Positions 15,453-35,227 of a DNA stretch of 45,595 bases are shown in pieces; position 1 is the stretch's first letter, and each line of letters opens with the position of its first letter. The notes beneath the pieces are model-generated. The model made no database searches. It saw only the letters and a program-made list of their open reading frames with translations, and had not been told where the DNA came from. The position numbers and the translations under genes were made by a program. This stretch comes from a virus. The stretch covers positions 1-45,595 of the IMG/VR virus record IMGVR_UViG_3300042292_000567; one strand, written 5' to 3'.

Positions 15453-15456
15453 GTAC

Positions 15457-15485
15457 ATGACCATGCGTTTATATTACTATATACT
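15457..15485 (+). promoter_or_regulatory. Sigma70-like promoter candidate for cysC
   Basis: ATGACC (15457-15462, 4 of 6) and TATACT (15480-15485, 5 of 6) with a 17-bp spacer, 16 nt before the cysC start. GGGGG lies four nt before the ATG. Confidence 0.4.
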
Positions 15486-15500
15486 AGTTTCGGGGGTACC

Positions 15501-18838: not shown

Positions 18839-20017
18839 TTAGAATGTGAGATCAGTTAATGCCAACACGTGGTACGAACCACAAGTTACAGATTTCCAAA
18901 TATATCCACCAGCGATAGTTTGAATTGGACTCGATATACCTACATTGGTCGTTGCGGTATTGTTTCCTAATTGACCGTACGAGTTGTTTCCCCACGTCCA
19001 TAATGAACCGTCAGTTTTAATTGCCGCCGTTGATGTCGCACCGCATGCTACTTGTTTCCAATTTGTACCACCCGCTGCTGTTTGAATAGGACTAGACTTT
19101 TTTATTGTAGTGTTATCGCCTAGTTGGCCATTTGCCCAATAATTATCACCCCACGTCCATAACGTACCATTAGTTTTGATAGCTGCAGTGTGACTATTAC
19201 CACAACTCACTTGTTTCCAATTAGTACCACCAGCTATTGTTTGAACCGGTGATGATTTAGACGTGGTAGTGTTGTCTCCTAATTGACCATAACCGCAAGT
19301 ACCCCACATCCAAAGAGTTCCATCAGTTTTTACAGCAGCTGTGTGGTTCCCCCCACAGGCCACTTGCACCCAGTTGCTACCACCTGACACGGTTTGAATG
19401 GGTGATGAGGATGAATTGTTAGTGTTATCTCCAAGTTGTCCTAAGTTTCGCCCCCATAACCATAGGGTCCCATTTGATTTAATCGCCGCGGTATGGTTGT
19501 TAAAACTACTCACACTGACCCAATTGTTGCCACCCGCTACCGTTTGAATGGGACTTGATTTGTGGGTCCGGGTGCCATCGCCGAGTTCACCGTTTGTGTT
19601 GTACCCGCAACTCCATAATGTTCCATCGGTTTTGATAGCTACAGTGTACTTCCGCCCACAAGCTACTTTTTTCCAACTATTACCACCTACTACGGTTTGT
19701 ATAGGGCTTGAATATGTAGTGGTATTATTAGTCCCTAATTGTCCGTAGTCGTTGTATCCACAAACCCACATAGTACCGTCGGTTTTTATCAACGCTGAAT
19801 GCCACAACCCTCCTGCCACCTGTTTCCAATTAGTACCACCTGCAATTGTCTGTACAGGAGATGGTTTATTAGCTGTCGTATTATCACCTAGTGCACCATT
19901 GTTATTCCTACCCCAACCCCATAATGTACCATCACTAAAATACTCACGACGAATTAAAATATCATCTAGATCAGCTTTATAATTACCAACTTGAGCAACA
20001 GTAAAACCAGTAGCCAT
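18839..20017 (-). CDS. RCC1-repeat seven-bladed propeller fibre protein, 392 residues
   Basis: Seven tandem RCC1/ATS1-type repeats of ~50 residues with the consensus TDGTLWTWGxNxxGQLGDNTTxxKSSPVQT, then GGTNWKQVxCGxxHTAAIK. The N-terminal ~28 residues (TGFTVAQVGNYKADLDDILIRREYF) form a short leader shared in style with the other RCC1 fibre starts here. Seven repeats complete one propeller. RCC1 folds usually bind proteins; in phage fibres the variable residues at repeat junctions could bind a receptor. It is the last gene of the first RCC1 cassette and its ATG overlaps the upstream stop by one base. No catalytic residues are evident. Confidence 0.8.
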   Translation of the reverse strand: MATGFTVAQVGNYKADLDDILIRREYFSDGTLWGWGRNNNGALGDNTTANKPSPVQTIAGGTNWKQVAGGLWHSALIKTDGTMWVCGYNDYGQLGTNNTTTYSSPIQTVVGGNSWKKVACGRKYTVAIKTDGTLWSCGYNTNGELGDGTRTHKSSPIQTVAGGNNWVSVSSFNNHTAAIKSNGTLWLWGRNLGQLGDNTNNSSSSPIQTVSGGSNWVQVACGGNHTAAVKTDGTLWMWGTCGYGQLGDNTTTSKSSPVQTIAGGTNWKQVSCGNSHTAAIKTNGTLWTWGDNYWANGQLGDNTTIKKSSPIQTAAGGTNWKQVACGATSTAAIKTDGSLWTWGNNSYGQLGNNTATTNVGISSPIQTIAGGYIWKSVTCGSYHVLALTDLTF

Positions 20018-20508
20018 TATAATTCCTTCAATCTAAAAATTTGAATTAAACCCTGGTCAAACGAATGAAACAACCAAGGTCTAAAAAATATACCCTGACC
20101 TGGTTCTAACAAATAATTGACAGTTAAATCCCATTCAAATAAATTACGATACCCAAATTGATATCCATCTAATGCTGATTTTGCACCTGAGTGATGTTCA
20201 AATAAATTAAATGTAGAATTCTCTAATGCTACAACAAACAACCATTCATTTGGCTCATCAAACCCTTCAAAATGAATAAACAATTCTGGAGATCTAAAAA
20301 CACCGGATCGTTCTAAATCTACTTGTATATTCTTACCTAAGACATTAGAAAACATTACATCAGCATCTTCAGCAACAGCATTAAAGTTTTCAATTTCATG
20401 TCCAAAATCTGTTCTTGTGTATTGTAGGTTTTTAACAACACGAGAAAGATTAATTGCTTCTTCTTTTGTGTAAAAACCATCGATTGTCATTGTTTTTATA
20501 AACGCCAT
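20017..20508 (-). CDS. Putative 2OG-Fe(II) oxygenase or cupin-like protein
   Basis: 163 residues from the ATG at 20508, with GGGTGG five nt upstream. The C-terminal half looks like a double-stranded beta-helix: LFIHFEGF places His79 and Glu81 as a possible HxE metal pair, EPGQGIFFRPWLFHSF gives His148, and IFRL gives Arg159, positions typical for 2-oxoglutarate binding. The N-terminal MTIDGFYTKEEAINLSRVV fits the lead-in helix of such enzymes. Spacing agrees with the 2OG-Fe(II) superfamily, but the assignment is by pattern only; a cupin without enzyme activity is possible. It sits inside the RCC1 cassette between two propeller genes, so a protein hydroxylation or fibre-folding role could be considered. 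Confidence 0.5.
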   Translation of the reverse strand: MAFIKTMTIDGFYTKEEAINLSRVVKNLQYTRTDFGHEIENFNAVAEDADVMFSNVLGKNIQVDLERSGVFRSPELFIHFEGFDEPNEWLFVVALENSTFNLFEHHSGAKSALDGYQFGYRNLFEWDLTVNYLLEPGQGIFFRPWLFHSFDQGLIQIFRLKEL

Positions 20509-20509
20509 T

Positions 20510-21706
20510 TTACCACCCTGATGCTTCTGATATTGCATACGTAGTGTATGCAGTGCAAGATACTGATTTCCAAGTGTTAACGCCACCAATATTTACAAAA
20601 CTAGATTTATCAACCGATCCACTGTCAGCTAACTGACCATATCCATTATACCCACACGACCATAATGAACCATCAGTTTTAATTGCAACAGTATGTGTAG
20701 ATCCAACTGAAACTTGCTTCCAGGTAGTACCACCACCAGATACAGTTACCGGACTAGATCTATCAATAATAGAATTATCCCCTAATTGACCTTTATGGTT
20801 TCTACCCCAAGTCCACAACGTACCATCTAATTTAATGGCTGCCACATGATATTCACCAGCTGATACCTGTTTCCAGTTTGAGCCACCAGTTACCGTTTGT
20901 ACAGGACTCGATTGTCTTGTAGTGGAATTATTACCTAGTGTACCGTAGTTATTGTACCCGCAGGTCCACAATGTATTATCAGATCTAATTGCAACCGTAT
21001 AGTCGCGCGCCGCTGATACCTGCTTCCACGTAGTGTTTACCCCAAAAGCTTGAACCGGACTAGATCTATGTACCCCAGATCCGTCACCTAAAGCACCGTA
21101 ACCGTTACTACCAAACCCCCACATTGTACCATCGGTTTTAATAGCTATTGAATGATATTGACCTGCCGATATTGACTTCCAATTCGTACCTCCAGTTACA
21201 GTTTGAATAGGTGATGATCTATTAACCGTATCGTTAACTCCGAGCTGACCCCATAGGTTAAAGCCACCCCACGTCCACAATGTACCATCCGTTTTAATTG
21301 CCATGGTGTGGTAACCACCAATCGATACCTGCTGCCAATTTGTACCACCGGTGATGGTTTGTACTGGACTTGATTTATTAGTTACAGAGTTATCACCCAA
21401 TTGTCCATAATTATCGGATCCCCACGTCCATAACGTACCATCAGTTTTAATAGCTGCTGCATGGGCACCTGTTCCACTAGATATCAATTTCCAATTAGTA
21501 CCACCGGTAATTGTTTGCACCAGCGATGATCTAGATCCTGATACATTAATCCCAAGTTGCCCACTACTATTACCTCCACTACACCACAATTGAGGAGTAA
21601 CCATACCACTCGGTAAATTAGGGTACCAAGTCATAACATAATCTTTTGTTACATACTTGTTACCTAAATCAACACCATCACTATCCATAAACCCTAATGT
21701 TGCCAT
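20510..21706 (-). CDS. RCC1-repeat seven-bladed propeller fibre protein, 398 residues
   Basis: Seven RCC1-type repeats beginning with QLWCSGGNSSGQLGI near residue 41; repeat bodies carry TDGTLWTWGSDNYGQLGD and GGTNWKSISAG-type segments. The fourth repeat (SSPVQAFGVNTTWKQVSA) and the last (FVNIGGVNTWKSVSC) lack the usual GGTNW, so the propeller is less regular than its siblings. The N-terminal 40 residues (FMDSDGVDLGNKYVTKDYVM) resemble those of the 29510-33412 product. The gene starts 13 nt inside the 3' end of the DUF4376 gene with GGTGGTAGG upstream. The adjacent oxygenase-like gene follows 1 nt after its stop. Role in the virion fibre inferred from the cassette. Confidence 0.8.
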   Translation of the reverse strand: MATLGFMDSDGVDLGNKYVTKDYVMTWYPNLPSGMVTPQLWCSGGNSSGQLGINVSGSRSSLVQTITGGTNWKLISSGTGAHAAAIKTDGTLWTWGSDNYGQLGDNSVTNKSSPVQTITGGTNWQQVSIGGYHTMAIKTDGTLWTWGGFNLWGQLGVNDTVNRSSPIQTVTGGTNWKSISAGQYHSIAIKTDGTMWGFGSNGYGALGDGSGVHRSSPVQAFGVNTTWKQVSAARDYTVAIRSDNTLWTCGYNNYGTLGNNSTTRQSSPVQTVTGGSNWKQVSAGEYHVAAIKLDGTLWTWGRNHKGQLGDNSIIDRSSPVTVSGGGTTWKQVSVGSTHTVAIKTDGSLWSCGYNGYGQLADSGSVDKSSFVNIGGVNTWKSVSCTAYTTYAISEASGW

Positions 21707-22344
21707 AAACCTACCACCGGATTACCAAGATCAATTAAATCTAATTCTTCATGTGTTGCAGCATTACTGATCTCAGCTATTTTTTCAGCTTCCCAATCAA
21801 ATTGAGCTTGAATATAGCTGTTAATAGCATTAACAATAATACCTAAATCTTGTTTTGTTAATACTAACCATACTTGAGCAAATTTCCATTGAATAGTATC
21901 ATTATCAGCTAATAATAGATATTTTTGGATAAAGATATCTCTATTGCCTCTACTCGTATCAATACTAAGTTCTTGATCTTGTACTATTACAGCAACACCT
22001 TTATTTTCTTTAATCCATCTATTATCAGCTACTTTAGCTTTTAATGTATTCTGAATTGACTCAATTGAATGCTGAACTATTTCAAAAGTACCGATAGCTT
22101 TGCCGGTAGAAAAATCCCAAAATGGTCCGTGTAAGTACTCAAGTTTTGGATTATAATTTTGTTGAATTAATTCAGCTGGGTAGATATGAGTGGTATCATC
22201 TATTGTAATAACTTCATCATCATCTTTGCTCATAGGAAGTTTATAAGATATTTCTAAATCTTCAGCTAGAGTCGATTCAAAAGAACGGTAATTCCAGGCT
22301 CTTGGACCGTTTAATACTGTATTGTTGTTTTCTAAAACGTACAT
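21694..22344 (-). CDS. DUF4376-type protein, fibre assembly accessory
   Basis: 216 residues; the C-terminal ~110 residues (LKAKVADNRWIKENKGV, then SIDTSRGNRDIFIQKY, VWLVLTKQDLGIIVNAI and AQFDWEAEKI) match the DUF4376 domain as I know it in phage tail-associated proteins. The N-terminal half shares YNPKLEYLHGPFWDF with the paralogue at 33388-34035. Function of DUF4376 is not established; its place beside fibres in many phages suggests assembly or an adaptor role. It lies between two RCC1 genes in the same position as its paralogue. The start follows AGGAG seven nt upstream, at 1 bp after the upstream stop. Confidence 0.75.
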   Translation of the reverse strand: MYVLENNNTVLNGPRAWNYRSFESTLAEDLEISYKLPMSKDDDEVITIDDTTHIYPAELIQQNYNPKLEYLHGPFWDFSTGKAIGTFEIVQHSIESIQNTLKAKVADNRWIKENKGVAVIVQDQELSIDTSRGNRDIFIQKYLLLADNDTIQWKFAQVWLVLTKQDLGIIVNAINSYIQAQFDWEAEKIAEISNAATHEELDLIDLGNPVVGLWQH

Positions 22345-23502
22345 TTATTCTCCTATTGCAAACATCGTGAAATGTCCACCGCATACTACTTGTTTCCAAT
22401 TGCTTGATGGTTGCAGCACAGGAATATTATATGTGGTTGTATTGTTTGTTCCAAGTTGACCGTGTGCATTACTGCCCCACACCCATAATGAACCGTCAGT
22501 TTTTATTGCAGCTGTGTTACCAAATCCCACGGATACTTGTTTCCAATTAGTTCCACCTGCTGCAGTTTGTACAGGACTGGATTTAGCGCTAGTAGTAGAA
22601 TCACCTATCTCGCTATACCAATTCATTCCCCACAACCACAGTGTACCATCAGTTTTTATTGCCGCTGTATGGTAGTAATTACAAGCAACCTGCTTCCAAT
22701 TAGTTCCACCTGCTGCCGTCTGTACAGGAGATGATTTATTAACTCTTGTATTATCACCTAATTGACCATAACTGTCCGAACCCCACCCCCACAGCGTGCC
22801 ATCTGTTTTGATCCCCATTGTGAAGTTGAATCCACCAGAAACAACTTTCCAATTTGTACCTCCGGTCGTAATTTGTATTGGACTTGAACAACTCGTCGTA
22901 TTGTTTGTACCTAATTGACCTTTATTATTATATCCGCACGACCACAACGTACCATCTGTTTTGATTGCAGCGATGTGATAATAACCGCAGGTAACATAAG
23001 CCCAATTTGAACCGGATATTACGGTTTGAACCGGTGATGACCTATTAACACTAGTGTTATCCCCTAGTTGACCGTATGCATTCCACCCCCACGTCCATAA
23101 TGTACTGTCGGATTTAATTGCTGCTACATGTTGCACACCACATGATATTTGTGTCCAATTTGTACCACCAGCGGTGGTCTGTACAGGGGATGATTTATTA
23201 ACGGTAGTGTTGTCACCCAACTGACCGTAGTTGTTTGCAAATCCACCCCACACCCACAATGTACCATCGGTTTTTATTGCGCCAAGCGCTTTATCACCTG
23301 CAGATACACTCTGCCAGTTTGTACCACCTGCAACGGTTTGTACAGGTATTGATTTTTTAATAATTGTACCATCTCCAAGGTTACCGACCGTGTTATACCC
23401 ACAACCCCACAACTTTGTACCCACAAATCGGTCAACTAGTTCAGTACCCTTCATAAAGACACGATCAAAATCACCATCAGTTGCGTTACTAAACCCAGAC
23501 AT
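22345..23502 (-). CDS. RCC1-repeat seven-bladed propeller fibre protein, 385 residues
   Basis: Seven RCC1-type repeats from about residue 30 (KLWGCGYNTVGNLGDGT) to the end (VLQPSSNWKQVVCGGHFTMFAIGE). The N-terminal leader (GFSNATDGDFDRVFMKGTELVDRF) resembles that of the 34037-35227 product in position and length. The last repeat lacks the GGTNW motif, which is replaced by PSSNW, as expected for the closing blade. Its ATG overlaps the stop of the S74 fibre gene by one base (TAATG), with GGAGG eight nt before it. It is followed directly by the DUF4376 gene. Expected to be a fibre tip or receptor-binding subunit. Confidence 0.8.
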   Translation of the reverse strand: MSGFSNATDGDFDRVFMKGTELVDRFVGTKLWGCGYNTVGNLGDGTIIKKSIPVQTVAGGTNWQSVSAGDKALGAIKTDGTLWVWGGFANNYGQLGDNTTVNKSSPVQTTAGGTNWTQISCGVQHVAAIKSDSTLWTWGWNAYGQLGDNTSVNRSSPVQTVISGSNWAYVTCGYYHIAAIKTDGTLWSCGYNNKGQLGTNNTTSCSSPIQITTGGTNWKVVSGGFNFTMGIKTDGTLWGWGSDSYGQLGDNTRVNKSSPVQTAAGGTNWKQVACNYYHTAAIKTDGTLWLWGMNWYSEIGDSTTSAKSSPVQTAAGGTNWKQVSVGFGNTAAIKTDGSLWVWGSNAHGQLGTNNTTTYNIPVLQPSSNWKQVVCGGHFTMFAIGE

Positions 23503-24296
23503 TATTTAGCCTCCAACTGCTCAACTTTATCTGACAATTCTTTAACAGCACCAATCAAATAACCAATCAAACCAGAATAATCAACACTTTTTAATCCATT
23601 ATCTGCTGTATTGACTAAATCAGGTAAAATTTGCTCTAATTGTTGAGCTATAACACCAGCTGATTTTTTACCACCGTCTTTAAATTCAAATTTAACACTT
23701 TCAATTTGTTTAACGGTATATAACGCATTATCAATTGTAACGATATTAGTTTTTTGTGTTTCGTCAGATAATGAACTAAACCCCGTCGCATATAATGTAC
23801 CGAGACTAGGATTAAAATAATATTTTGATGATGATGTTTTAGCAACATTACCACCCGCTGCTGTTACAACAATTGGATAATATGAAGCATTTGTCGTAGT
23901 ATCATCAGTTGATGTTAACCCACCTCCACTAGCAACAGCAGCCCAACTCGCAGAAGTACCGTTAGTGGTTAAGTACAATCCACTATTACCGGTTTGTGTA
24001 GGTAGTGCTGTAACAGCTGCCCAACTTGCAGACGCGCCATCAGTAGTAAGATACTTACCTGAATTACTCGTTTGAGTTGGTAACGATATTGGTGCAGACC
24101 CTGAAACCCAAGTTGTACCATTGCTTGTTAATACGTTACCGGTTGTACCTGGCGCGACAGCTTGTACCGCTGATGCACCATTACCTAATATAACACTATT
24201 CAGGGTAAGTGTTGATGACCCGGTACCTCCGTACGCAACCGTTAATGCGCTTGGGCTCGACGGGTTTCGTAGAATTGTCGAAAGGTTTTTTGCCAT
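23502..24296 (-). CDS. Fibre protein with S74 self-cleaving chaperone domain
   Basis: 264 residues. The N-terminal part has three copies of the fibre phrase LPTQTxNSGxYLTTxGxxASWA after a GGTG module. The C-terminal ~88 residues are a Peptidase_S74 intramolecular chaperone: SLSDETQKTNIVTIDN with Ser177 and Lys182 as the likely catalytic pair, then SVKFEFKDGGKKSAGVIAQQLEQILPDLV and a terminal coiled coil (LIGAVKELSDKVEQLEAK). S74 domains trimerise fibres and then cut themselves off. First gene of the first RCC1 cassette. Its SD lies in the 3' arm of an inverted repeat that also spans a late box (24308-24375). Paralogue at 35229-36032. Confidence 0.85.
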   Translation of the reverse strand: MAKNLSTILRNPSSPSALTVAYGGTGSSTLTLNSVILGNGASAVQAVAPGTTGNVLTSNGTTWVSGSAPISLPTQTSNSGKYLTTDGASASWAAVTALPTQTGNSGLYLTTNGTSASWAAVASGGGLTSTDDTTTNASYYPIVVTAAGGNVAKTSSSKYYFNPSLGTLYATGFSSLSDETQKTNIVTIDNALYTVKQIESVKFEFKDGGKKSAGVIAQQLEQILPDLVNTADNGLKSVDYSGLIGYLIGAVKELSDKVEQLEAK

Positions 24297-24307
24297 TATT
24301 GGTTTGT

Positions 24308-24375
24308 CCTTACCTTATAGATTCGGTAAATAAATTACGATTTAACTAATATTTATTCTTTTCAATAAGGTAAGG
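24308..24375 (-). promoter_or_regulatory. Late promoter inside an SD-sequestering inverted repeat
   Basis: On the - strand, CCTTACCTTAT (24375-24365) and ATAAGGTAAGG (24318-24308) are exact 11-bp reverse complements; the second contains the ribosome-binding site of the 23502-24296 gene. A late-type AATAAATA box lies between them at 24357-24350. Read-through RNA from upstream carries both arms and could hide the SD; RNA started at the late box would lack the first arm. This layout is the one known from some T4 late genes. Confidence 0.65.
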
Positions 24376-24386
24376 TTCATTACTAA

Positions 24387-25751
24387 TCACACTGTAAAAT
24401 CTTGCAAATACTTCTGCATTTCTTCTAATGGTTCTTTCCAAGATCTTGGTTTTTGTTGATAAAATATCTTAGTAGTTTCACCATACCATGTATTTTTATT
24501 ATCAGGGTTGCACCAAACATAATAGCAAGAAATTGGAACAACTACACATACATGTTTACCCATAGCTGATGCGATATGAGCAATTGATGTACAACTCGTT
24601 ATAACTAAATCTAACTTACTTATACAAACAAATAAATCTACCAATGTTTTTAATTCAGTTGACAAATCAATTAAATCACTTGTCAATTGTTCTAACCCTG
24701 TATCACGTTGAATAGAATACATTTCATTGCCAGTTGGAATATGATTTAATATTTCTTTTAATGGAATACTTCTATGTAGATCTTGATCATATTCAGGGTT
24801 ACCTTGCCATCTAACACCAATTTTTAGTTTAGATGAGTTTAACAATTCATCCCACTTATCATCTAATCGTGTAGGTAAATTATTAACATATACACCGGTC
24901 CATAAATCTTTATACTTAACATTTAAATGAATCGGTAAATGCATCGATGGGGTATAATTACAATTTTCCAAAAATTCTTTTGGTACTTGTCTGATATCAG
25001 AAAATGCTTTAATACCATTAAGGTTATAAATCTCAGCTAAATCTTGTCTATTTTGTAATGTTAACCAGATAACATTCAAACCAAGTTTTTCTAATTTTTT
25101 AACAAAACGAATATTAATAAGTTCATCACCGATACCAGCTTCAGCGATAATCAATAAATTTTTACCAGGTGAAGCTACACCGTTCCATTTTGGTAACCCA
25201 TAATTATCATGTTTTTGATTTAAGAACGAACAAGTACCTCTTAAATCTGACAACAGAAAACGTTTCAAACCTTGCTGTAAGTTACCATCGATAAGATCAT
25301 ACGTACCAAGATTAAATTCAGTTTTTTCACGTTGCTCGTCTGTTAACGATGGATCGTTTAATTTTTCACGTAACAGTTTAGCAGCATCTTGTTTTTTATT
25401 CATTAAAAACCAAGCATAGGCTTTTTCAAAATCACGATCTGTATCATCTTTAATAACAGCTTCACTTGCCTTAATATACCGCATTGCTTTTTCTGGCATA
25501 TTATTATGGTTGTAAACGTTCGTTAAGTTTTGACGCATAACGTACATTTGCTGGGGTGTACTAGCTATCGATATACCTTTTTCGCCGTACTTAATAGATT
25601 TATCGTAATCTTTTATTTTGAAAAAACATTTTGAAACATCGTCAAAATGCTCAAATGATTGGGCATTTTTTCCAAAAACATCTAATACTTGTTTTGCGAG
25701 TTCTGATTCATTAGCGTTATGTAAATAAACAGAAATATCTTCTAAACTCAT
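24387..25751 (-). CDS. TPR-containing glycosyltransferase-like protein
   Basis: 454 residues. The first ~175 form tetratricopeptide-like helical pairs (for example DYDKSIKYGEKGISIASTP, EKAMRYIKASEAVI, EFNLGTYDLIDGNLQQGLKRF). Residues ~195-454 are GT-B-like: an AEAGIGDELINIRFV loop (203-217), KIGVRWQGNPEYDQDLHRSIPL (310-331), and TSCTSIAHIASAMGKHVCVVVP (385-406), followed by WYG and a PRSWKEPL tail; this order matches TPR-glycosyltransferases of bacteria and phages. Likely to transfer a sugar to a protein, lipid or nucleic acid; donor and acceptor are unknown. Last gene of the modification operon; its ATG overlaps the methyltransferase stop (ATGA). Family call solid, specificity unknown. Confidence 0.8.
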   Translation of the reverse strand: MSLEDISVYLHNANESELAKQVLDVFGKNAQSFEHFDDVSKCFFKIKDYDKSIKYGEKGISIASTPQQMYVMRQNLTNVYNHNNMPEKAMRYIKASEAVIKDDTDRDFEKAYAWFLMNKKQDAAKLLREKLNDPSLTDEQREKTEFNLGTYDLIDGNLQQGLKRFLLSDLRGTCSFLNQKHDNYGLPKWNGVASPGKNLLIIAEAGIGDELINIRFVKKLEKLGLNVIWLTLQNRQDLAEIYNLNGIKAFSDIRQVPKEFLENCNYTPSMHLPIHLNVKYKDLWTGVYVNNLPTRLDDKWDELLNSSKLKIGVRWQGNPEYDQDLHRSIPLKEILNHIPTGNEMYSIQRDTGLEQLTSDLIDLSTELKTLVDLFVCISKLDLVITSCTSIAHIASAMGKHVCVVVPISCYYVWCNPDNKNTWYGETTKIFYQQKPRSWKEPLEEMQKYLQDFTV

Positions 25752-26299
25752 TTAATTACCTGCCATTTAAGTTTAAGGTACTTGATAACGTTCCAATTTA
25801 ATCTTGCAAACGCTTCACGTTCCATCTCTTCCATCTTTTCTAATTGAGGAATAAAAAATGGATCAAATGTTTGTTCGTATTCGACAATTTCAAAATCAAC
25901 GTCTAATTTTAACCCAAACCCGGTTGATGAACCAAAATGTTCAATATGCCAATGGTTGTATTTTTTACTAAACAACCTAAACGTTTCTACCGTAAACGGT
26001 CTACAATGGGTTGGGTCACCATAAAACTCATCATGACGATGATGAGGTACTTCAATATCGATAATAGCGCCATCTTCACAAACACGATAAAGCTCTTTCA
26101 ACAAATGAAAGAATCCTTCTCCAATATGTTCAAAAATATGATGAGCTATTACGTATTCAACAGAGTTGTCTTCAAACGGTAAAACATCTTTACTGATATC
26201 GCATGTAACATCAGCATTACATAATGGATCCATATCAATAGTAGTAAAACCTTCTGGGCGTTTTAATCCACCGCCAATATTCAATTTATATTTCTTCAC
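25748..26299 (-). CDS. SAM-dependent methyltransferase (class I)
   Basis: 183 residues from a GTG at 26299 with GGAG six nt upstream; a TTG at 26311 is in frame but weaker. Motif I KLNIGGG (5-11), the acidic ID pair after strand 2 (21-22), FEDNSVEYVIAHHIFEHI (42-59) as motif II/III, and IDIEVPHHRHDEFYGDPTH (80-98) resemble type 11 methyltransferases in sugar-modification clusters. The C-terminal part has an alpha-helical lid. The methylated substrate is unknown; neighbours suggest a sugar or protein-linked glycan. It overlaps the YkgJ-like gene by 14 nt and the glycosyltransferase by 4 nt. Translational coupling on both sides indicates joint production. Confidence 0.8.
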   Translation of the reverse strand: MKKYKLNIGGGLKRPEGFTTIDMDPLCNADVTCDISKDVLPFEDNSVEYVIAHHIFEHIGEGFFHLLKELYRVCEDGAIIDIEVPHHRHDEFYGDPTHCRPFTVETFRLFSKKYNHWHIEHFGSSTGFGLKLDVDFEIVEYEQTFDPFFIPQLEKMEEMEREAFARLNWNVIKYLKLKWQVIK

Positions 26300-26642
26300 A
26301 ATATTCTCCAAATTTCTCTAACGCGTGTTCTTTTAACGGTGGATAATGACCTTTTCTGCAATCAAATTGTCTGCAAGCTTTTGGTCTATCATCATAAATT
26401 GAGCATTTCTCATCAATAAAATAAATGCATTTACCATTTAATCTCGGTACAGCAATAATAGGTTTATCGATGCCAGATGTTAGGAACGTATAAATGTACT
26501 TTCCAGATTCAAACTCTTCTTGTGTTAAATTAGGTGACAATGAAACACAACATTTATGGCAATCACCGCACTTAATATCGACTTCTGGGATATAATCCCT
26601 TTGCATCGTTATAGCTGTAATATTATAATGTTTTAATTTCAT
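26286..26642 (-). CDS. YkgJ-like cysteine-cluster protein
   Basis: 118 residues from the ATG at 26642, which overlaps the sulfotransferase stop (ATGA). Eight conserved Cys lie at 25, 28, 31, 32, 72, 80, 90 and 95, giving the CxxCxxCC signature and the later CSIYDDRPKACRQFDC block of the YkgJ (zinc/iron-chelating) family. Family function is not established; members are thought to bind Fe-S or Zn and often sit in modification gene clusters. Here it is sandwiched between a sulfotransferase and a methyltransferase, so a role in the same modification is the simplest reading. No membrane segment or signal peptide is visible. Confidence 0.85.
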   Translation of the reverse strand: MKLKHYNITAITMQRDYIPEVDIKCGDCHKCCVSLSPNLTQEEFESGKYIYTFLTSGIDKPIIAVPRLNGKCIYFIDEKCSIYDDRPKACRQFDCRKGHYPPLKEHALEKFGEYCEEI

Positions 26643-27415: not shown

Positions 27416-27418
27416 GTC

Positions 27419-27456
27419 GTAAATATGCTCTGTTGTTGAATACAGAACATATTTAC
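27419..27456 (-). promoter_or_regulatory. Long hairpin abutting the sulfotransferase start
   Basis: On the - strand GTAAATATG, an unpaired base, TCTGT, an 8-nt loop, ACAGA, an unpaired base and CATATTTAC form a 14-bp stem ending 3 nt before the ATG. No SD precedes the start, so the hairpin could control its translation. A CGTAAATA sequence at its 5' foot is a weak (6 of 8) late-box match, so late starts inside the stem are conceivable. Confidence 0.55.
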
Positions 27457-27483
27457 GCTTTTAAAAATTGAGGTTGTTTTATT

Positions 27484-29433
27484 TTACTGATCTGTGGTGT
27501 ATGTCGAGGGGAATTGACGTATATTACCCGGCCAAATTATACGTACAGCGCCATTACCACCTATACCGGAATTGTTAGTTGAAACAGGACTTTGATTGTA
27601 TTCACCGCCCCCAGCACCACCGCCATATAACCCCCCATTTCCTCCAATAGCAGTTGTACCTGTTTGCCCCACACCACCGTTAGTACCAGATGATCCACCT
27701 CCACCGGAAGCACCAGCAGAACCGTATGTTGTCCCACCCCAATTACCATTACTAACAGCACCGTTAGCACCTTGACCTAGTAAACCTACACCTCCCCCAC
27801 CCCCACCAGCTCCGTTGTTTACAAATCCGGAACCACCCCCAGCACCACCTCCCCCAGATCCTGCAGTTGGACTAGTTGAATAGCCATACCCTCCAGCACC
27901 TCCAGCACCTGAGTAGCCACCCGCGCCGCCACCACCTCCGTAACTGGTATTACCAGCTCCCCCAGCTCCTCCAGCTCCATAAATTACAGTACCACCAGTC
28001 GCACCATTTCCAGATCCAGCAGCAACCGAGGTAGTGTTAAACGACGATGACGTACCTCCTGGAGCACTAACTACGACCGTATAACTTTGCCCGGGTACCA
28101 CGGTTATGTTATTTGCGTAAGCTAATGCACCCCCGCCAAACCCTGTTGTGGATGCAGATCCGGTTCCACCACCAGCTCCAACAGCTACAACCGAAACAGA
28201 ATTTACTCCAGCTGGTGCGACCCAAGTGTGTGTACCAGGTGTCGTGAATTGTTGTTGTCCAGTTGTAAGTATACCGGTATTATAATCAAGTGTATCAGTA
28301 ATAGCAGCAATACCGTACCGACTACACGATACGCCGACCCAATTTGTACCGCCAGCTACTGTTTGCACTGGTGATGATTTATTTGATGTTGTATTGTCAC
28401 CTAGGCCACCGTAACTATTGTAACCGCAGGTCCACAACGTACCATCTGTTTTGATTGATGCGAATGAGAAGTCTCCACATTCGATATATTTCCAATTTGT
28501 CCCGCCTGCTACGGTTTGTGCGGGACTTGATTTATGGTTAGTAGTGTTATCACCTAACTGGCCGAATGAATTATAACCCCACGTCCACAACGTACCATCA
28601 GTTTTGGTAGCAGCTGTGTGGAACATCCCCGATGATATTTGATTCCACGTATTTCCCCCAGCGATCGTCTGCACCGGACTAGATAAATCCACTATAGCGT
28701 TATTACCTAACTGTCCATAGTTATTATTCCCCCACGTCCATAGTGTACCATCGGATTTTATAGCTGTAGTGAATGCATAGCCGCAACTAACCCGTTTCCA
28801 ATTAGTACCACCTGCAATGGTTTGAACCGGGGATGACCTATCAACTATAGTATTGTCTCCTAATTGTCCTTTTAAATTTCTCCCCCAGCACCATAGAGAA
28901 CCATCGGTCTTTATCGCTGACGTGTGTTTAAACCCACACACCACCTGCTTCCAATTTGTACCAATTGATATTGTTTGCACAGGTGACGACCTAAATATTA
29001 CAGTATTATCACCAATTTCACCGTATGTATCATAACCCCACAACCATAGCGTACTATCGGTTTTGATAGCAGCTGAATGGTTTGCACCACATGAAACTTG
29101 TTTCCAATTAGTACCACCAGCCACCGTTTGAACAGGACTTGACCTTGAGATAGTTGTATTATCTCCTAAATGTCCGTATGCATTTAATCCCCACATCCAC
29201 AACGTACCATCTGATTTAATAGCTCCAATAGTACTATTAGAAACACTCACTCGTTTCCAATTAGTACCACCAGCGACGGTTTGTATTGGACTAGATTTAT
29301 CGGTTCGTGTACCATCCCCTAATTGTCCACTACCGTTTGTTCCCCACCCCCACAAATTTCCTTCAAGAAATATATCTTTACGTACAAACAATAAATCTGT
29401 ATCAACGTTGTTTATTTGGTACCCAGTTGCCAT
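27484..29433 (-). CDS. RCC1 propeller fused to a Gly-rich fibre-tip domain
   Basis: 649 residues. Residues ~30-390 hold seven RCC1-type repeats. The remaining ~250 residues start with FTTPGTHTWVAPAGVNSVSV, then become extremely Gly-rich (GGGGAGGYSGAGGAGGYG and like) and end in GNGAVRIIWPGNIRQFPST, a tail I associate with phage fibre tips. Poly-Gly domains of this kind in other phage adhesins make receptor-binding tips with exposed loops. It starts with GGAGG seven nt upstream, 76 nt after the 1300-residue propeller gene, which is the only such gap in the second RCC1 cassette. The modification operon begins 68 nt after its stop. Likely the tip or side-fibre subunit. Confidence 0.8.
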   Translation of the reverse strand: MATGYQINNVDTDLLFVRKDIFLEGNLWGWGTNGSGQLGDGTRTDKSSPIQTVAGGTNWKRVSVSNSTIGAIKSDGTLWMWGLNAYGHLGDNTTISRSSPVQTVAGGTNWKQVSCGANHSAAIKTDSTLWLWGYDTYGEIGDNTVIFRSSPVQTISIGTNWKQVVCGFKHTSAIKTDGSLWCWGRNLKGQLGDNTIVDRSSPVQTIAGGTNWKRVSCGYAFTTAIKSDGTLWTWGNNNYGQLGNNAIVDLSSPVQTIAGGNTWNQISSGMFHTAATKTDGTLWTWGYNSFGQLGDNTTNHKSSPAQTVAGGTNWKYIECGDFSFASIKTDGTLWTCGYNSYGGLGDNTTSNKSSPVQTVAGGTNWVGVSCSRYGIAAITDTLDYNTGILTTGQQQFTTPGTHTWVAPAGVNSVSVVAVGAGGGTGSASTTGFGGGALAYANNITVVPGQSYTVVVSAPGGTSSSFNTTSVAAGSGNGATGGTVIYGAGGAGGAGNTSYGGGGGAGGYSGAGGAGGYGYSTSPTAGSGGGGAGGGSGFVNNGAGGGGGGVGLLGQGANGAVSNGNWGGTTYGSAGASGGGGSSGTNGGVGQTGTTAIGGNGGLYGGGAGGGEYNQSPVSTNNSGIGGNGAVRIIWPGNIRQFPSTYTTDQ

Positions 29434-29509
29434 TGTTCCTCCGTGTAAAAGTAATGACCCAAACGATAGTGTGAATGAGCGTAGAGATTACAATACAAAT
29501 TAATATTTT

Positions 29510-32500
29510 TCATGATAGTCCGTAAGTGTTTATATATCCGCATGCAACATACTTCCAATTGATACCACCTGCAGCTGTCTGTACTGGACTTGATTTATTA
29601 ACTGATGTATTGTCACCCAATTGACCGTAGTTATTATACCCCCACGTCCATAGAGTACCATCCGATTTAATGCCAGCTGTTTGAAAATTAAAACAGCTTA
29701 CCTGCTTCCAATTTGTACCACCGGATATTGTTTGTACTGGACTTGATTTACGAACTGATGTATTGTCCCCTAGAGATCCTAAACTTCCGTCTCCCCACGC
29801 CCATACAGTGCCATCTGTTTTAATAGCTGCCGTGTGTTGGTACCCCGTAGCAACTTGTCTCCAATTTGTACCACCAGATACGGTTTGAACAGGACTCGGT
29901 TTCCTAACTATTGTACCATCTCCTAACTGCCCTGTGGTGTTATTCCCAATCATCCACAGTGTCCCATCAGTTTTAATTGCAGCGGTGTGTGAATATCCAC
30001 AACTTACTTGTTTCCAATTTGTACCACCGGTAATTGTTTGAGCAGGACTTGATGTATCGTTGAATGTGTTATTCCCTAGCGCACCGTGTGGGTTATAACC
30101 CCACGTCCAAAGCGTCCCATCAGTTTTTATTGCTGCTGTATGATATTGTCCACCGGATACCTGTTTCCAATTAGTGCCACCAGCTACAGTTTGAACAGGA
30201 CTTGATTTTTTTGTGATTGTATTATCACCTAATTGACCTTTGTGATTGTACCCGCACGACCAAAGGGTACCATTTGTCTTAATAGCAGACATATGATACA
30301 GACCGCACGACACCTGCTTCCAATTAGTTCCACCTGCTACGGTTTGAACCGGGCTTGAAACTCTAGTGGTGTTGTTGGTACCTAACCCTCCTTGAGCATT
30401 ATAGCCCCACGTCCACAACGTACCGTCGGATTTAACAGCAGCTGTAAACTGGCTACCTCCAGATACCTGTTTCCAATTCGTACCACCAGCTATCGTTTGT
30501 ACTGGGCTCAATTGGCTGGTTCTTGTATTGTCCCCAAGCTGACCTTGTCCATTATACCCCCACCCCCATAACGTAGCTGAAAAACCACTTGTTGTTAAAC
30601 TCAACGTTTTGGTAACTCCGGTAGTTGTTGATGCTGTTAATGAATCAGTTCCATCTAAATCCATACTAACAGTAACGTTACTAGACGTAACTCCGGTAAT
30701 AGTTGATGATCCTGTACCACCACCAGCAGACCAATTTAACAATGTGCAATCTGTGCTTGTTGTACCATTATTATACGTCATCGTCGCGGTATATGTATAC
30801 GATGATAGCATCGTGGTAGATGTTGTTCCAGCTATCGCTACATTTGTAACGTATGGTGTTGAAGATTCTTGAATTGCTGTGGTATTATACATACCAGCTG
30901 CAACCATTTTCCAGTTGGTACCACCTATGATAGTTTGAACTGGCGATGATTTACGTGTAGTTGTATTATCACCCAATTGACCATTTGTATTGTACCCCCA
31001 CAACCACATCGTACCATCTGTTTTAATTGCTGCGGTGTGGTATAAACCAGCCGCAACCCACCTCCAACTGGTACCACCTGTGATAGTTTGCACTGGGCTC
31101 GATTTATTAGCTGTTGTATTATCTCCCAACTGTCCATACCCACAGTACCCCCAACCCCACAAGGTACCGTCAGTTTTAACTGCTACGGTGTGCTCGCCAC
31201 CACACGACACGTGCTTCCAGTTAGTACCACCTGCTATAGTTTGAACAGGACTAGATTTTGTTGTGATTGTATTATCACCTAATGGTCCTCCATTATTACG
31301 CCCCCAACCCCAGAGTGTACCATCAGATTTTATTGCTGCAGTGTGCCACCGTCCACACGCAACCTGTTTCCAATTGGTACCACCAGCGACGGTTTGGACC
31401 GGACTTGATTTTTTTGTGATTGTATTATCACCTAATTGCCCCAGATTATTATACCCACACATCCACAACGTACCATCCGATTTTATAGCTGCGGTGTAGG
31501 CTGAGCCGCAAGACACCTGTTTCCAATTGGTACCACCAGCAACGGTTTGAACTGGACTCGATTTATGGGTAGTAGTGTTATCACCAAGTTGCCCGTACTC
31601 ATTTTCGCCCCAAGTCCACAACGTTCCATCGGTTTTTATCGCTGCTGAAGATCTTTGACCGCACGCTACTAGTTTCCAATTTGTACCACCCACAATGGTT
31701 TGAACAGGACTTGATTTAGATACTGTAGTGTTGTCACCTAATTGTCCAAACTGATTATACCCCCAACACCATAAGGTACCATCTGTTTTAATTGCTGCAT
31801 TGAGCTCTAGTCCACACACCACCTGCTTCCAATTTGTTCCACCGGCAATTGTTTGTACAGGACTTGATTTAGATACTGTTGTACTATCACCTAACTGACC
31901 ATTCGCATTATTACCCCACGTCCACAGTGTACCATAAAATGAACCGCTACTCAAACTCAACGTTGTATTATAAGACGAACTATAATCACTCGCTGTAATA
32001 ATATCTGTACCATCACCGTCGATACTCACTGTAACACCGTTTGCTGCGACATTTGTAACAGTTGAAGATCCGGTTGAGCTGGATGACCCGGTTGACCATG
32101 ACAATTTTGTACAATCTGTACTAGACGGTCCGGCTAGATAATTAATTAATGCTGTATAAACGTATGAATTACCAGTAGTTACTGCAGATGAGCCTGATAT
32201 CGTAACAGATGTAATTGGATTTCTTGCGTCACCGAGAGCGTCGTTATCAGCGATAGCTATTGTGGTAAACCGGTTAGCATGTACCTGCTTCCAGTTTGTA
32301 CCACCAGCTATAGTTTGAACTGGGCTAGATTTATGAGCGGTTGTTAAATCACCTATTTGACCTGAACTATTATATCCACATAACCACATTGAACCATCAG
32401 ATTTAATAGCAGCTGTAATATTATATCCGCAGTTAACATATCTCCAATTAGTGCCGCCAGCTACTGTTTGTATTGGACTTGATCTAGAAATAGTTGTATT

Positions 32501-33412
32501 ATCTCCCAATTGGCCATAGTCATTTAATCCCCACATCCACAACGTACCGTCAGTTTTAATACCAGATGAGTGGTTAACACCGGCCTTCACTAATTTCCAA
32601 GTAGTATCAACATCTACCTGAGTTAATGTGTTAGTTGATGTTGATGAATTACGTCCTAATTGGCCATAACCACCATACCCACCTGACCATAGGGTACCAT
32701 CATTTTTAATAGCTAATAAATGCACATTACCCGCTGAGGTTTGTTTCCAAGTAGTTCCACCACCCAATACTTGGACGGGGCTTGAAACGGGTGTGCTGTT
32801 ACCGGTACATAACTGACCATTACCATTATGCCCCCACACCCACAGTGTACCATCGGTTTTAACCGCAGCTAAAAAATTCACACCGCACGATAGTTGCTTC
32901 CAATTAGTACCACCTGCAAACGTTTGGACAGGACTTGACTTTGAAGTGGTTGAATTATCACCCAATTGACCATACGTATTGCCCCCCCACGCCCAAAGGG
33001 TACCATCTGTTTTTATTGCTGCAGTGAGTTGATCCCCACAAGCAACCTGCTTCCAATTAGTACCACCTGCTATAGATTGTACTGGACTTGATTTGTCGGT
33101 TCTTGTATTATCACCTAATTGACCAGCACTATTGTATCCCCACATCCAAAGTGTACCGTCAGTTTTGATACCAGCGCAGGTCCACATCGAACTGACGGTA
33201 ACCTGGTTCCAGTTTGTACCACCTGCGATAGTTTGTACAGGCGATGATTTTTTAACTGTGGTATTATCACCTAATTGACCAGCACTATTACCACCCCAAC
33301 ACCACAACGACGGCGTAGTAACAACATTACTTAAAGATGGGTAAATATCTAGTAAGTATGATTTAGGTACTAAACCACTAGCAATATCTACACTATTTGA
33401 TTGATAGGCCAT
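29510..33412 (-). CDS. Giant RCC1 fibre: three propellers joined by two Ig-like domains
   Basis: 1300 residues: leader (~1-36), propeller 1 of seven RCC1 repeats, an Ig-like domain near 390-490 (VTISGSSAVTTGNSYVYTALI, then VTNVAANGVTVSI, DGTDIITASDY), propeller 2 (seven repeats), a second Ig-like domain near 847-943 with the same order (VAIAGTTSTTMLSSYTYTATM, ITGVTSSNVTVSMDLDGTD), and propeller 3 (seven repeats) to the end. That is 21 repeats. The Ig-like pair resembles BIG2-type modules. It starts 25 nt inside the DUF4376 gene. Intragenic duplication of a propeller-Ig unit explains the layout. Probably a long side fibre; no enzyme residues are visible. Confidence 0.8.
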   Translation of the reverse strand: MAYQSNSVDIASGLVPKSYLLDIYPSLSNVVTTPSLWCWGGNSAGQLGDNTTVKKSSPVQTIAGGTNWNQVTVSSMWTCAGIKTDGTLWMWGYNSAGQLGDNTRTDKSSPVQSIAGGTNWKQVACGDQLTAAIKTDGTLWAWGGNTYGQLGDNSTTSKSSPVQTFAGGTNWKQLSCGVNFLAAVKTDGTLWVWGHNGNGQLCTGNSTPVSSPVQVLGGGTTWKQTSAGNVHLLAIKNDGTLWSGGYGGYGQLGRNSSTSTNTLTQVDVDTTWKLVKAGVNHSSGIKTDGTLWMWGLNDYGQLGDNTTISRSSPIQTVAGGTNWRYVNCGYNITAAIKSDGSMWLCGYNSSGQIGDLTTAHKSSPVQTIAGGTNWKQVHANRFTTIAIADNDALGDARNPITSVTISGSSAVTTGNSYVYTALINYLAGPSSTDCTKLSWSTGSSSSTGSSTVTNVAANGVTVSIDGDGTDIITASDYSSSYNTTLSLSSGSFYGTLWTWGNNANGQLGDSTTVSKSSPVQTIAGGTNWKQVVCGLELNAAIKTDGTLWCWGYNQFGQLGDNTTVSKSSPVQTIVGGTNWKLVACGQRSSAAIKTDGTLWTWGENEYGQLGDNTTTHKSSPVQTVAGGTNWKQVSCGSAYTAAIKSDGTLWMCGYNNLGQLGDNTITKKSSPVQTVAGGTNWKQVACGRWHTAAIKSDGTLWGWGRNNGGPLGDNTITTKSSPVQTIAGGTNWKHVSCGGEHTVAVKTDGTLWGWGYCGYGQLGDNTTANKSSPVQTITGGTSWRWVAAGLYHTAAIKTDGTMWLWGYNTNGQLGDNTTTRKSSPVQTIIGGTNWKMVAAGMYNTTAIQESSTPYVTNVAIAGTTSTTMLSSYTYTATMTYNNGTTSTDCTLLNWSAGGGTGSSTITGVTSSNVTVSMDLDGTDSLTASTTTGVTKTLSLTTSGFSATLWGWGYNGQGQLGDNTRTSQLSPVQTIAGGTNWKQVSGGSQFTAAVKSDGTLWTWGYNAQGGLGTNNTTRVSSPVQTVAGGTNWKQVSCGLYHMSAIKTNGTLWSCGYNHKGQLGDNTITKKSSPVQTVAGGTNWKQVSGGQYHTAAIKTDGTLWTWGYNPHGALGNNTFNDTSSPAQTITGGTNWKQVSCGYSHTAAIKTDGTLWMIGNNTTGQLGDGTIVRKPSPVQTVSGGTNWRQVATGYQHTAAIKTDGTVWAWGDGSLGSLGDNTSVRKSSPVQTISGGTNWKQVSCFNFQTAGIKSDGTLWTWGYNNYGQLGDNTSVNKSSPVQTAAGGINWKYVACGYINTYGLS

Positions 33413-34035
33413 TCCAGCTCAACCTCATTTAATAGTTCTGGTGTTAGACAAGCATCAATTTCAATACTCTTATTCATTTCCCAATCAAAACAGCTTTGAA
33501 CATGATTACGAATACTATTAACGATACTAGTCAATTCTTCTATCGATAATGTTAGCCAAATAACGCCAATATCAGAATTTAATTTCCATGCTGTACTATC
33601 AGCATTGACATTTAACGCTTGCAAATATATATCTCGTGATCCACGATTTGTATCTAAAATAATATTATGATCTTGGATTGTTATATTAGTACCACTAATT
33701 TCTTTGTTATATCTATTATTAGCGACAATAACTTTTAATTCATTTTTTATAATATCAATATTCTTAAATAACGGTTCATGGTACTGCTCAGCATACTCAT
33801 CTGTAAAATTATAAAACGGTCCATGTAGGTACTCAATTTTAGGATTATAAGGTACTTGAGTTTGTACAACAGGGTACGCAAAAATACCATGACCAATATC
33901 TGTTTTTTGTGTTGGTGGGTCTAATGGTAATTTTATGATCATTTCATAATCATCTTCGATGTATGATTCAAATAACCGTGTATGCCAAATATTAGGTCCC
34001 GCAAAAACAAAATCACCTTTTGCTAAAACGTACAT
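33388..34035 (-). CDS. DUF4376-type protein, fibre assembly accessory, paralogue 2
   Basis: 215 residues, paralogous to the protein at 21694-22344. Shared blocks: YNPKIEYLHGPFYNF in the N-terminal half, then the DUF4376 segment LKVIVANNRYNKEISG, ILDTNRGSRDIYLQAL, IGVIWLTLSIEELTSIVNSI, and a CFDWEMNKSIEID end. The stretch of ~25 residues after YNF is changed relative to its paralogue. It is preceded 1 nt earlier by an RCC1 gene and overlaps the 1300-residue RCC1 gene by 25 nt, the same slot as its paralogue. A role in fibre assembly is inferred from context and from DUF4376 being tail-linked in other phages. Confidence 0.75.
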   Translation of the reverse strand: MYVLAKGDFVFAGPNIWHTRLFESYIEDDYEMIIKLPLDPPTQKTDIGHGIFAYPVVQTQVPYNPKIEYLHGPFYNFTDEYAEQYHEPLFKNIDIIKNELKVIVANNRYNKEISGTNITIQDHNIILDTNRGSRDIYLQALNVNADSTAWKLNSDIGVIWLTLSIEELTSIVNSIRNHVQSCFDWEMNKSIEIDACLTPELLNEVELEWPINQIV

Positions 34036-34036
34036 G

Positions 34037-35227
34037 TTATGTTCCTGTTGTATTAATGTTGTTTATTGATATTGCCATTGTGTGGTTAGTACCAGCTGAT
34101 GCTTGCTTCCAATTGGTACCACCTGTGTATGTTTGCCTAGGGTAAGATCCACCAGTAACTGTATTATCCCCGAGCTGACCATAGTTATTGCTACCCCAAC
34201 CCCATAGTGTACCATCTGTTTTAATAGCTATTGTATGTGTGCTACCACTTACTACTTGCGACCAATTTGTTCCACCAGTAACTGTTTGTACAGGTGATGA
34301 CTTTTGAGCAGTTGTATTGTCACCCAATTGACCGCTACCGTTACTACCCCACAACCACAACGTACCGTCTAATTTAACCGCAGCCGTAAATGAGTACCCG
34401 CAGGCCGCTTGCTTCCAAATAGTTCCACCTGCAACCGTTTGTACGGGAGATGATTTATTCGTGATTGTATTGTCACCGAGTTGACCGGATGTATTGAGAC
34501 CCCAACACCATAATGTACCGTCTGTTTTTACGGCAGCTGTATGTTGGTACCCACAAGCTACATGCTTCCAATAAGTACCACTAGATGTAGTTTGAACTGG
34601 GCTAATTTGATTTGACGTATTGTTGTTACCTAGTTGACCAACAAAACCTTGTCCCCACAACCATAACGTCCCATCTGATTTAATTGCAGCTGTGTGATTT
34701 GCACCGAGTGCAGCACGAACCCAATTAGTACCACTCGCTACTGTCTGTACAGGACTTGAACGTGAACTGTAACTGTTATCACCTAATTGTCCACTGCCAT
34801 TATACCCCCACGTCCATAATGTACCATCTGTTTTAATTGCTGCAACCGAGCTAGATATTGGACCCATAGCTACATACTTCCAATTTGTGCCGCCAGTTAT
34901 AGTTTGCACCGGTGATGATTTTGTTGTCGCTGAACCATCCCCTAATCGACCATGATCACCATTACCCCAACACCATAGTGTACCATCTGTCTTTACGGCA
35001 TACGAGGTTTGACCAGTGCACCCAACAATTCTCCAGTTGTTACCACCGGTTATTGTCTGTATTGGGGTTGAATAGTTGACGGTGTTGTTAGTTCCTAGCT
35101 TACCAAATTGATTATTATACCCCCAACCCCATAACCTATCACCAAACCATTTATTAACAATCCAATAATCAGTTGCATAAATTGATTCTAATGGAGAATC
35201 CGCACCGTTGTTTATAGTAAAAGCCAT
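34037..35227 (-). CDS. RCC1-repeat seven-bladed propeller fibre protein, 396 residues
   Basis: Seven RCC1-type repeats from about residue 35 (RLWGWGYNNQFGKLGTNN) with three divergent copies of the GGTNW motif (ASGTNW, SSGTYW, GGTIW). The leader (FTINNGADSPLESIYATDYWIVNKWFG) is of the same length as in the 22345 gene. It is the second gene of the second RCC1 cassette, 1 nt after the S74 fibre gene (GAGGG as ribosome-binding site) and 1 nt before the DUF4376 gene. It is the positional counterpart of the 22345-23502 gene. Fibre role inferred from this synteny. Confidence 0.8.
   Translation of the reverse strand: MAFTINNGADSPLESIYATDYWIVNKWFGDRLWGWGYNNQFGKLGTNNTVNYSTPIQTITGGNNWRIVGCTGQTSYAVKTDGTLWCWGNGDHGRLGDGSATTKSSPVQTITGGTNWKYVAMGPISSSVAAIKTDGTLWTWGYNGSGQLGDNSYSSRSSPVQTVASGTNWVRAALGANHTAAIKSDGTLWLWGQGFVGQLGNNNTSNQISPVQTTSSGTYWKHVACGYQHTAAVKTDGTLWCWGLNTSGQLGDNTITNKSSPVQTVAGGTIWKQAACGYSFTAAVKLDGTLWLWGSNGSGQLGDNTTAQKSSPVQTVTGGTNWSQVVSGSTHTIAIKTDGTLWGWGSNNYGQLGDNTVTGGSYPRQTYTGGTNWKQASAGTNHTMAISINNINTTGT

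Follow-up and report, generated by a model that had tools for sequence, protein, structure and literature searches.

What does a phage do with six genes that encode RCC1 repeats? The genes in question lie between positions 18839 and 35227 of a viral DNA of 45,595 nt, IMG/VR record IMGVR_UViG_3300042292_000567, which is called the window when the whole stretch is meant. A T4-like genome related to cyanophages is the most likely origin of the window: the protein encoded upstream of the locus (36042-38894) aligns over 97% of its length, at 44% identity, with virion structural/fibre proteins from marine Synechococcus myoviruses, and the closest RCC1 gene in a cultured phage, at 55.5%, is that of S-SRM01, a freshwater Synechococcus phage; the host assignment itself is putative. 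The six genes probably encode receptor-binding heads on the virion surface, a reading that rests on the order of the genes, on the exchange of heads on constant anchors, and on the detection of homologous proteins in the virions of other phages. The cassette defined by three anchor classes in a fixed order, its duplication as a whole in the window, and the replacement of its propellers are new here and go beyond the initial annotation of this DNA.

All six genes are on the minus strand, and a hidden Markov model (HMM) built from the window's own repeats counts 7, 7, 7, 7, 21 and 7 of them, i.e., 56 repeats in eight sets of seven, just as the initial annotation had it. Whole-protein RCC1 E-values go from 1e-58 to 1e-185, and all six proteins score far over the cut-offs of the Pfam models RCC1 and WD40_RLD, the latter being the RCC1-like-domain model. 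In the 45.6-kb record, Pfam RCC1 gives 55 single-repeat matches, nearly all over the cut-off and confined to these six genes, and it finds no repeats in the 14 control genomes searched beside the window. Labeled by anchor class (A, B or C) and by cassette, as explained below, the genes are the following:

34037-35227, minus strand: RCC1 protein of class A, cassette 1, one propeller, 396 amino acids (aa), anchor residues 1-31 (class A anchor; RCC1 E-value 2e-67; AlphaFold (AF2) model with seven blades of four strands)
29510-33412, minus strand: RCC1 protein of class B, cassette 1, three propellers, 1300 aa (class B anchor; 21 repeats as 7+7+7)
about 32237-33307, 30857-31927 and 29513-30571, minus strand: the three propellers of that class B protein, joined by two linkers of ~100 aa
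27484-29433, minus strand: RCC1 protein of class C, cassette 1, one propeller (~28294-29355) and a Gly-rich C-terminal head (~27487-28281) (class C anchor; 7 repeats)
22345-23502, minus strand: RCC1 protein of class A, cassette 2, one propeller (class A anchor; 7 repeats)
20510-21706, minus strand: RCC1 protein of class B, cassette 2, one propeller (class B anchor; 7 repeats, the first degenerate, LWCSGG...)
18839-20017, minus strand: RCC1 protein of class C, cassette 2, one propeller (class C anchor; 7 repeats)

Sets of seven are a rule of the family. Exactly seven repeats are found in 126 of 150 distinct complete open reading frames (ORFs), drawn from the window, from S-SRM01 and from related contigs of IMG/VR; most of the others have 14, 21 or 28, and the number is a multiple of seven in 90 of the 101 ORFs outside the search seeds. 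Within the repeat, conservation is concentrated in GGTNWKQV and TDGTLW.WG, with the variable positions in between, as had been noticed before and as the entropy of the family repeats confirms.

That each set of seven closes into a propeller had also been proposed, and structure prediction for one of them agrees. The AlphaFold model of the class A protein of cassette 1, built with 35 homologues, reaches a predicted local distance difference test (pLDDT) score of 83.8 and a predicted template-modeling (pTM) score of 0.83, and its 28 strands make seven four-stranded blades. Used as a Foldseek query, it retrieves UVR8 as the best match (E-value 1.6e-36, TM-score 0.81), then HERC1/HERC2, RPGR and RCC1, with HERC and RCC1 also at a TM-score of 0.8, and a closed seven-bladed ring of the RCC1 type is accordingly the predicted fold of this protein.

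The locus in which these proteins are encoded consists of two copies of one cassette, S74 - RCC1 A - DUF4376 - RCC1 B - RCC1 C, plus enzymes. Copy 1 starts with an S74 gene (35229-36032) and continues with A, DUF4376, the B gene with three propellers, and the C gene with the Gly-rich head; the enzymes come next, and then copy 2 with S74 (23502-24296), A, DUF4376, B, a 2-oxoglutarate (2OG)-oxygenase-like gene and C. Pfam matches bear out the S74 and DUF4376 neighbors named in the initial annotation:

36042-38894, minus strand: upstream virion structural/fibre protein of cyanomyovirus type (phrog_5838, E-value 5e-277)
35229-36032, minus strand: S74 intramolecular-chaperone fibre protein, cassette 1, 267 aa (Peptidase_S74, E-value 1e-11; best PHROGs are tail fibre/baseplate families)
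33388-34035, minus strand: DUF4376 / phrog_10508 tail fibre protein, cassette 1, between A and B (DUF4376 E-value 1.1e-5; phrog_10508)
23502-24296, minus strand: S74 fibre protein, cassette 2 (Peptidase_S74, E-value 9e-13)
21694-22344, minus strand: DUF4376 / phrog_10508 tail fibre protein, cassette 2 (DUF4376 E-value 2.1e-8; phrog_10508)

The RCC1 genes thus have the position among fibre/baseplate genes, beside fibre chaperones, that characterizes receptor-binding fibre proteins of phages. The three classes are defined by the residues ahead of the first repeat, with the patterns ..GDLExYF.T...LIDQ..G..LW.WG for A, ..DLG..LVTK.YL..VYP.L....TP.LW.WG for B, and ..FDD.FVP.D.F..G.LW.WG for C. Taken over non-redundant contig groups (n=48), all three classes occur together in 31, and their order is A-B-C in 30 of these (binomial p 1e-22 vs random order). 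Of 33 groups, 30 have an S74 protein whose end is at most 300 bp upstream of A. DUF4376 occupies the space between A and B in 33 groups of 35, and B is separated from C by a TPR or 2OG-like gene in 35 of 38. Large relatives carry about the repeats of one trio: the complete S-SRM01 has 20, and four contigs out of six between 155 and 259 kb have 19-21. Comparison of the anchor classes by hhalign gives E-values of 1e-9 to 1e-12 over a stretch that takes in the shared LW.WG of repeat 1, and for this reason a common origin of the three anchors is only suggested. No anchor was found in a non-RCC1 protein among the fetched loci, and bacterial RCC1 relatives align almost only with the propeller, in alignments that mostly start at residue 40 or beyond, so that the anchors look phage-specific. 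A different arrangement was seen in L072, L074 and L076 (223-329 kb; L-numbers denote the compared loci, mostly metagenomic IMG/VR contigs), where six RCC1 genes with other N-termini stand in tandem and the S74, DUF4376, TPR and sulfotransferase neighbors are kept.

Comparison of closely related cassettes reveals that the propellers are replaced on anchors that stay constant. In the pair L014/L029, the proteins DUF4376, 2OG-like and methyltransferase are each 99% identical, vs 73, 71 and 71% for RCC1 A, B and C. Along the same cassette, DUF4376 is 96-100% identical in DNA and the 2OG-like gene 99%, whereas the value drops to 72-76% in B and to 64-71% in the body of C; beyond C it recovers to 92-98%. 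The pairs L014/L032, L018/L030 and L024/L026 behave in the same way; the near-identical cassettes of such pairs come from different samples, with a mostly 92-100% identity of the flanking genes. At the first repeat of the RCC1 genes, identity switches from 92-99% in the anchors to 70-85% in the propellers, and pooled over nine gene pairs the DNA identity is 94.9% for anchors vs 75.2% for propellers (Fisher 1e-57). A constant attachment region followed by an exchangeable, diversified distal region is the construction expected of a receptor-binding fibre.

Synonymous sites indicate how these changes came about. In L014/L029, the proportion of synonymous differences (pS) is 0.45-0.49 in the RCC1 genes vs 0.05-0.13 in the DUF4376, 2OG-like, CxxC and methyltransferase genes, the TPR gene (0.48) being the exception among the neighbors, and such raised values mean that the heads were swapped for divergent alleles, not merely mutated. 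The repeats also have no memory of their class: their likeness between genomes is 0.610 for the same class and blade number vs 0.613 for other classes, and 0.635 vs 0.640 within L014/L029; the former pair of values could be due to saturation of the variable sites, the latter not.

The variation of the repeats is concentrated on one side of the predicted propeller. With the strands at repeat positions 1-5 (A), 20-25 (B), 33-38 (C) and 42-47 (D), the class A model places the AB and CD loops on one face and the BC and DA loops on the other. Over 622 family repeats the mean entropy is 2.14 bits in AB+CD, 0.95 in BC+DA and 1.14 in the strands (permutation p 0.004), and between closely related cassettes residues differ at 48.4%, 10.5% and 19.3% of these positions, respectively. 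Variability peaks at the two x positions of a GxxHT motif, which align with the W-R of the GWRHT motif of UVR8; at position 40, for example, Y18, G14, S13, F7, N7 and R7 are found (entropy 3.7 bits). In UVR8 the GWRHT motif is on the dimer face. Mapping variability onto the blades was a check put forward with the initial annotation, and the one-sided pattern obtained fits a binding face.

In several relatives, repeats from different genes are near-identical in DNA save for a few codons. Third-base identity between repeats is 0.946 in L013 and 0.868 in L068, vs 0.515 and 0.479 expected from codon usage. The corresponding values in the window, 0.402 vs 0.341, indicate little homogenization, and the window heads would thus be old and divergent. 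The variable codons of these relatives are mostly NNT with the first two bases varying (97% vs 69% expected in L068, 94% vs 63% in L024), and in L013, L024 and L068 the repeats of three genes differ in DNA almost only at NNT codons 6, 8, 9, 17, 19, 40 and 41; in the window the third base at variable codons is unbiased (0.44 vs 0.55 expected). A classical diversity-generating retroelement was considered and rejected, as no reverse transcriptase (PF00078) was found in the window or in any of 15 records, including the complete S-SRM01, and it is further disfavored by the invariance of A-containing codons such as that of the conserved Asn-7 (AAT). Gene conversion between repeats, with selection on few sites, is the simpler explanation.

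As a dominant adhesin fold in multiple copies, RCC1 propellers had been called unusual for a phage in the initial annotation; phage RCC1 proteins as such are not rare. IMG/VR has 381 relatives among 384 candidate stretches, 39 cultured-phage records contain RCC1, and three PHROGs (phrog_4219, phrog_7220 and phrog_16766) are named "regulator of chromosome condensation" and filed under DNA metabolism. Homologues were already known from virions: mass spectrometry of phAPEC6, whose genome encodes eleven RCC1-like proteins, detected six labeled "DNA condensation protein" in Table 1 (PMC7247149), and some of their "hypothetical" neighbors in that table may belong to the set too; W70 virions contain three RCC1-type proteins, W70_237-239, of phrog_4219 (PMC11370258), and GAP32 virions the RCC1-type gp001 (PMC5259590). 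In PollyC gp38 and SeaP3_12, an RCC1 propeller is joined to a T7-fibre-like N-terminus at the gp17 position. Escherichia phage 121Q (L085, 2090-16256) has a tract of 15 genes, most labeled DNA condensation, in which nearly all full-length proteins start with MLPFxRMVKYGN; it includes several fragments and is possibly a recombining adhesin array. This N-terminus is followed by RCC1-like heads and once, in gene 243, by a Gly-rich one, which parallels the combination of RCC1 and Gly-rich head in the window's 27484-29433. Both the fusion and the 121Q array favor a fibre role in other phages as well.

From these observations a mechanism can be proposed. Each head would be a closed seven-bladed RCC1 propeller, with three in a row in one protein, behind a short N-terminal anchor that would dock it at a separate site of the fibre or baseplate, where A, B and C possibly form a hetero-oligomer. 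Contact with a variable structure of the host surface would be made through the face of the AB and CD loops, and recombination would replace whole propellers, leaving anchors and neighbors fixed. More speculatively, the propellers may be modified by the glycosyltransferase-like and sulfotransferase-like enzymes of the cassette. These two are listed here with the other genes of the cassette and with a kinase gene that lies nearby:

26639-27415, minus strand: protein-tyrosine-sulfotransferase-like sulfotransferase (Sulfotransfer_3, E-value 2.6e-18)
26286-26648, minus strand: putative metal-binding CxxCxxCC protein (PF03692, E-value 1.1e-10)
25748-26311, minus strand: methyltransferase (Methyltransf_11, E-value 2.4e-5; phrog_6636)
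24387-25751, minus strand: TPR + glycosyltransferase (GT)-B-like protein, SPINDLY/OGT-like (AF2 pLDDT 90.4; Foldseek)
20017-20556, minus strand: small protein of a conserved family, encoded between B and C, whose likeness to 2OG oxygenases was judged by eye alone (conserved H and F.PW.FHS), with no match in Pfam, PHROGs, NCBIfam or PDB
15393-16076, plus strand: adenylyl-sulfate (APS) kinase (TIGR00455 apsK, E-value 1.1e-62, over the cut-off)

The profile of the sulfotransferase family matches protein-tyrosine sulfotransferases best (TPST1, E-value 2.6e-11 over residues 5-203), and P-R-x-G-x-T and R111/S119 are invariant in the family. For the TPR protein, Foldseek retrieves both SPINDLY and OGT, which are GT41 enzymes, and GT9 enzymes, with E-values of 3e-6 to 7e-4, at a whole-chain TM-score of only ~0.3. 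A tyrosine-sulfotransferase-like enzyme and an APS kinase in one phage form a possible sulfation pathway, in which the kinase could be the source of the sulfate donor. That the GT-like and sulfotransferase-like enzymes act on the propellers is attractive, and we give this tentative idea less than even chances; their substrates may just as well be host glycans or lipids. A more complete picture, in which the A/B/C anchors build a hetero-oligomeric tip showing three (here eight) exchangeable propellers that are homogenized between genes in some relatives, diversified at few codons of one face without a reverse transcriptase, and decorated by enzymes, is unlikely to be right in all its parts.

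Three other explanations have to be weighed against receptor-binding heads. The papers on phAPEC6 and W70 propose that the proteins order or condense DNA in the head (PMC7247149, PMC11370258), and the window proteins could likewise be internal DNA-organizing proteins akin to chromosome condensation factors. This would agree with the presence of homologues in virions, with the filing of their families under DNA metabolism, and with the basic charge of the window proteins. The condensation role is nevertheless an annotation in those papers with no DNA-binding test behind it, and it does not account for a location within fibre and baseplate genes and next to S74 and DUF4376, for propellers that are replaced and vary on one face next to constant neighbors, or for their fusion to a T7-fibre-like N-terminus. 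Copy number, moreover, goes from none (the CBB lineage, which has no homologue of the GAP32 protein) to the 15-gene tract of 121Q, and we regard a DNA-organizing function as improbable. The same is true of intracellular regulators of the RCC1/HERC type that never enter the virion: binding of proteins inside cells is a familiar role of RCC1 propellers, and enzymes do occur in the cassette, but homologues are present in the virions of three phages, an RCC1 propeller occurs fused to a T7-fibre-like N-terminus, and fast exchange without class memory is unexpected for a protein with a conserved intracellular partner, all of which makes such regulators very unlikely. Ran and nucleosomes are absent from bacterial hosts.

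Closer to receptor binding is the idea that the proteins are on the surface mainly as exchangeable decoration or as carriers of glycans or sulfate, e.g., against non-specific adsorption or antiviral binding. It draws on the close linkage to the TPR/GT-B protein and the sulfotransferase, on a very high Ser/Thr content (21-25%) of the RCC1 proteins, and on the finding that the TPR protein occurs in only four cultured-phage records, the four that also rank highest for RCC1. However, heads that are replaced on fixed anchors and vary on one face are the usual sign of binding specificity, and we give decoration little credence as the main function.

Several points weigh against receptor-binding heads as well. 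Virion detection concerns homologues in phAPEC6, W70 and GAP32, and the window phage is known from its sequence alone. The window RCC1 proteins have isoelectric points (pI) of 7.6-8.9 and the family a median of 8.8, and with these values charge failed as an argument against DNA binding. The fold model covers one of the eight propellers, and its anchor part is of low confidence (pLDDT 50-64). Most of the evidence for replacement is from metagenomic contigs, in which misassembly of repeats can occur, and between S-SRM01 and L035 the contrast of anchor and propeller is present in A (93 vs 79%), not in B or C. The Phage_T7_tail match of PollyC is just below the Pfam cut-off (23.1 vs 25.2 bits). 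Finally, RCC1 blades often vary in their loops from one blade to the next, and one-face variation is therefore supporting evidence that is not decisive alone; replacement on constant anchors is much stronger evidence for receptor binding. On balance, the proposal of virion fibres in the initial annotation is partly supported, by the fibre-gene setting, the fold and the one-face variability, and from these and the replacement data we infer virion location and receptor binding.

If the six genes do encode receptor-binding heads, many annotations in PHROGs, GenBank and papers, along with one published hypothesis, point wrongly to capsid DNA instead of host recognition, and the A/B/C cassette would mark host-recognition loci in cyanophage-like viruses of fresh water. 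The propellers would be a natural library with a constant scaffold and a diversified face, useful for studying how specificity changes in phages without a reverse transcriptase.

Elsewhere in the window, another multivalent adhesin candidate is the 1564-aa protein with seven LamG/concanavalin-like domains at 40586-45280 (minus strand). Fibre-like proteins related to phrog_19943/24898 are encoded at 12078-14612, 16118-17017 and 16993-18090 (minus strand), the first with a DUF7483 domain that is also present where the fibre region of S-SRM01 ends. The remaining observations are a NADAR domain protein (2107-2595, plus strand), a class 3 lipase (3189-3911, minus strand) and a PhoH-like protein (8131-8889, plus strand).

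Among known systems, the closest solved fold to the phage propeller is that of UVR8 and the RCC1-like domains of RCC1/HERC, although the Trp and Arg of the repeated GWRHT motifs of UVR8 are not kept in the phage repeats. The targets of Mtd-like diversity-generating retroelements resemble some relatives in their NNT variable codons, whereas the window lacks this signature. Proteins of phrog_4219, phrog_7220 and phrog_16766 likewise contain RCC1 repeats; a match to a further family, phrog_4474, covers residues 385-649 of the class C protein at 27484-29433. Unlike for the window, anchor classes, cassette and head exchange are undescribed for the phrog families in the papers found, and none of these, in a search whose reach excluded most subscription journals, proposes RCC1 as a phage fibre or receptor-binding head. 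The tandem array of 121Q/phAPEC6 is like the window in its many paralogous RCC1-like genes with a constant N-terminus, and differs in having another N-terminus and only distant repeats, and in not being seen beside fibre genes. In the T7-like fibres of PollyC and SeaP3 an RCC1 propeller is the fibre head, as proposed for the window, but head and fibre anchor are one protein and there is no A/B/C trio. The fibre region of the isolated phage S-SRM01 (NC_070963), whose paper makes no mention of RCC1, shares the cassette, which lies downstream of the baseplate genes and consists of S74, A, DUF4376, B, TPR protein, C and sulfotransferase; it differs from the window in having one trio instead of two, with single propellers throughout.

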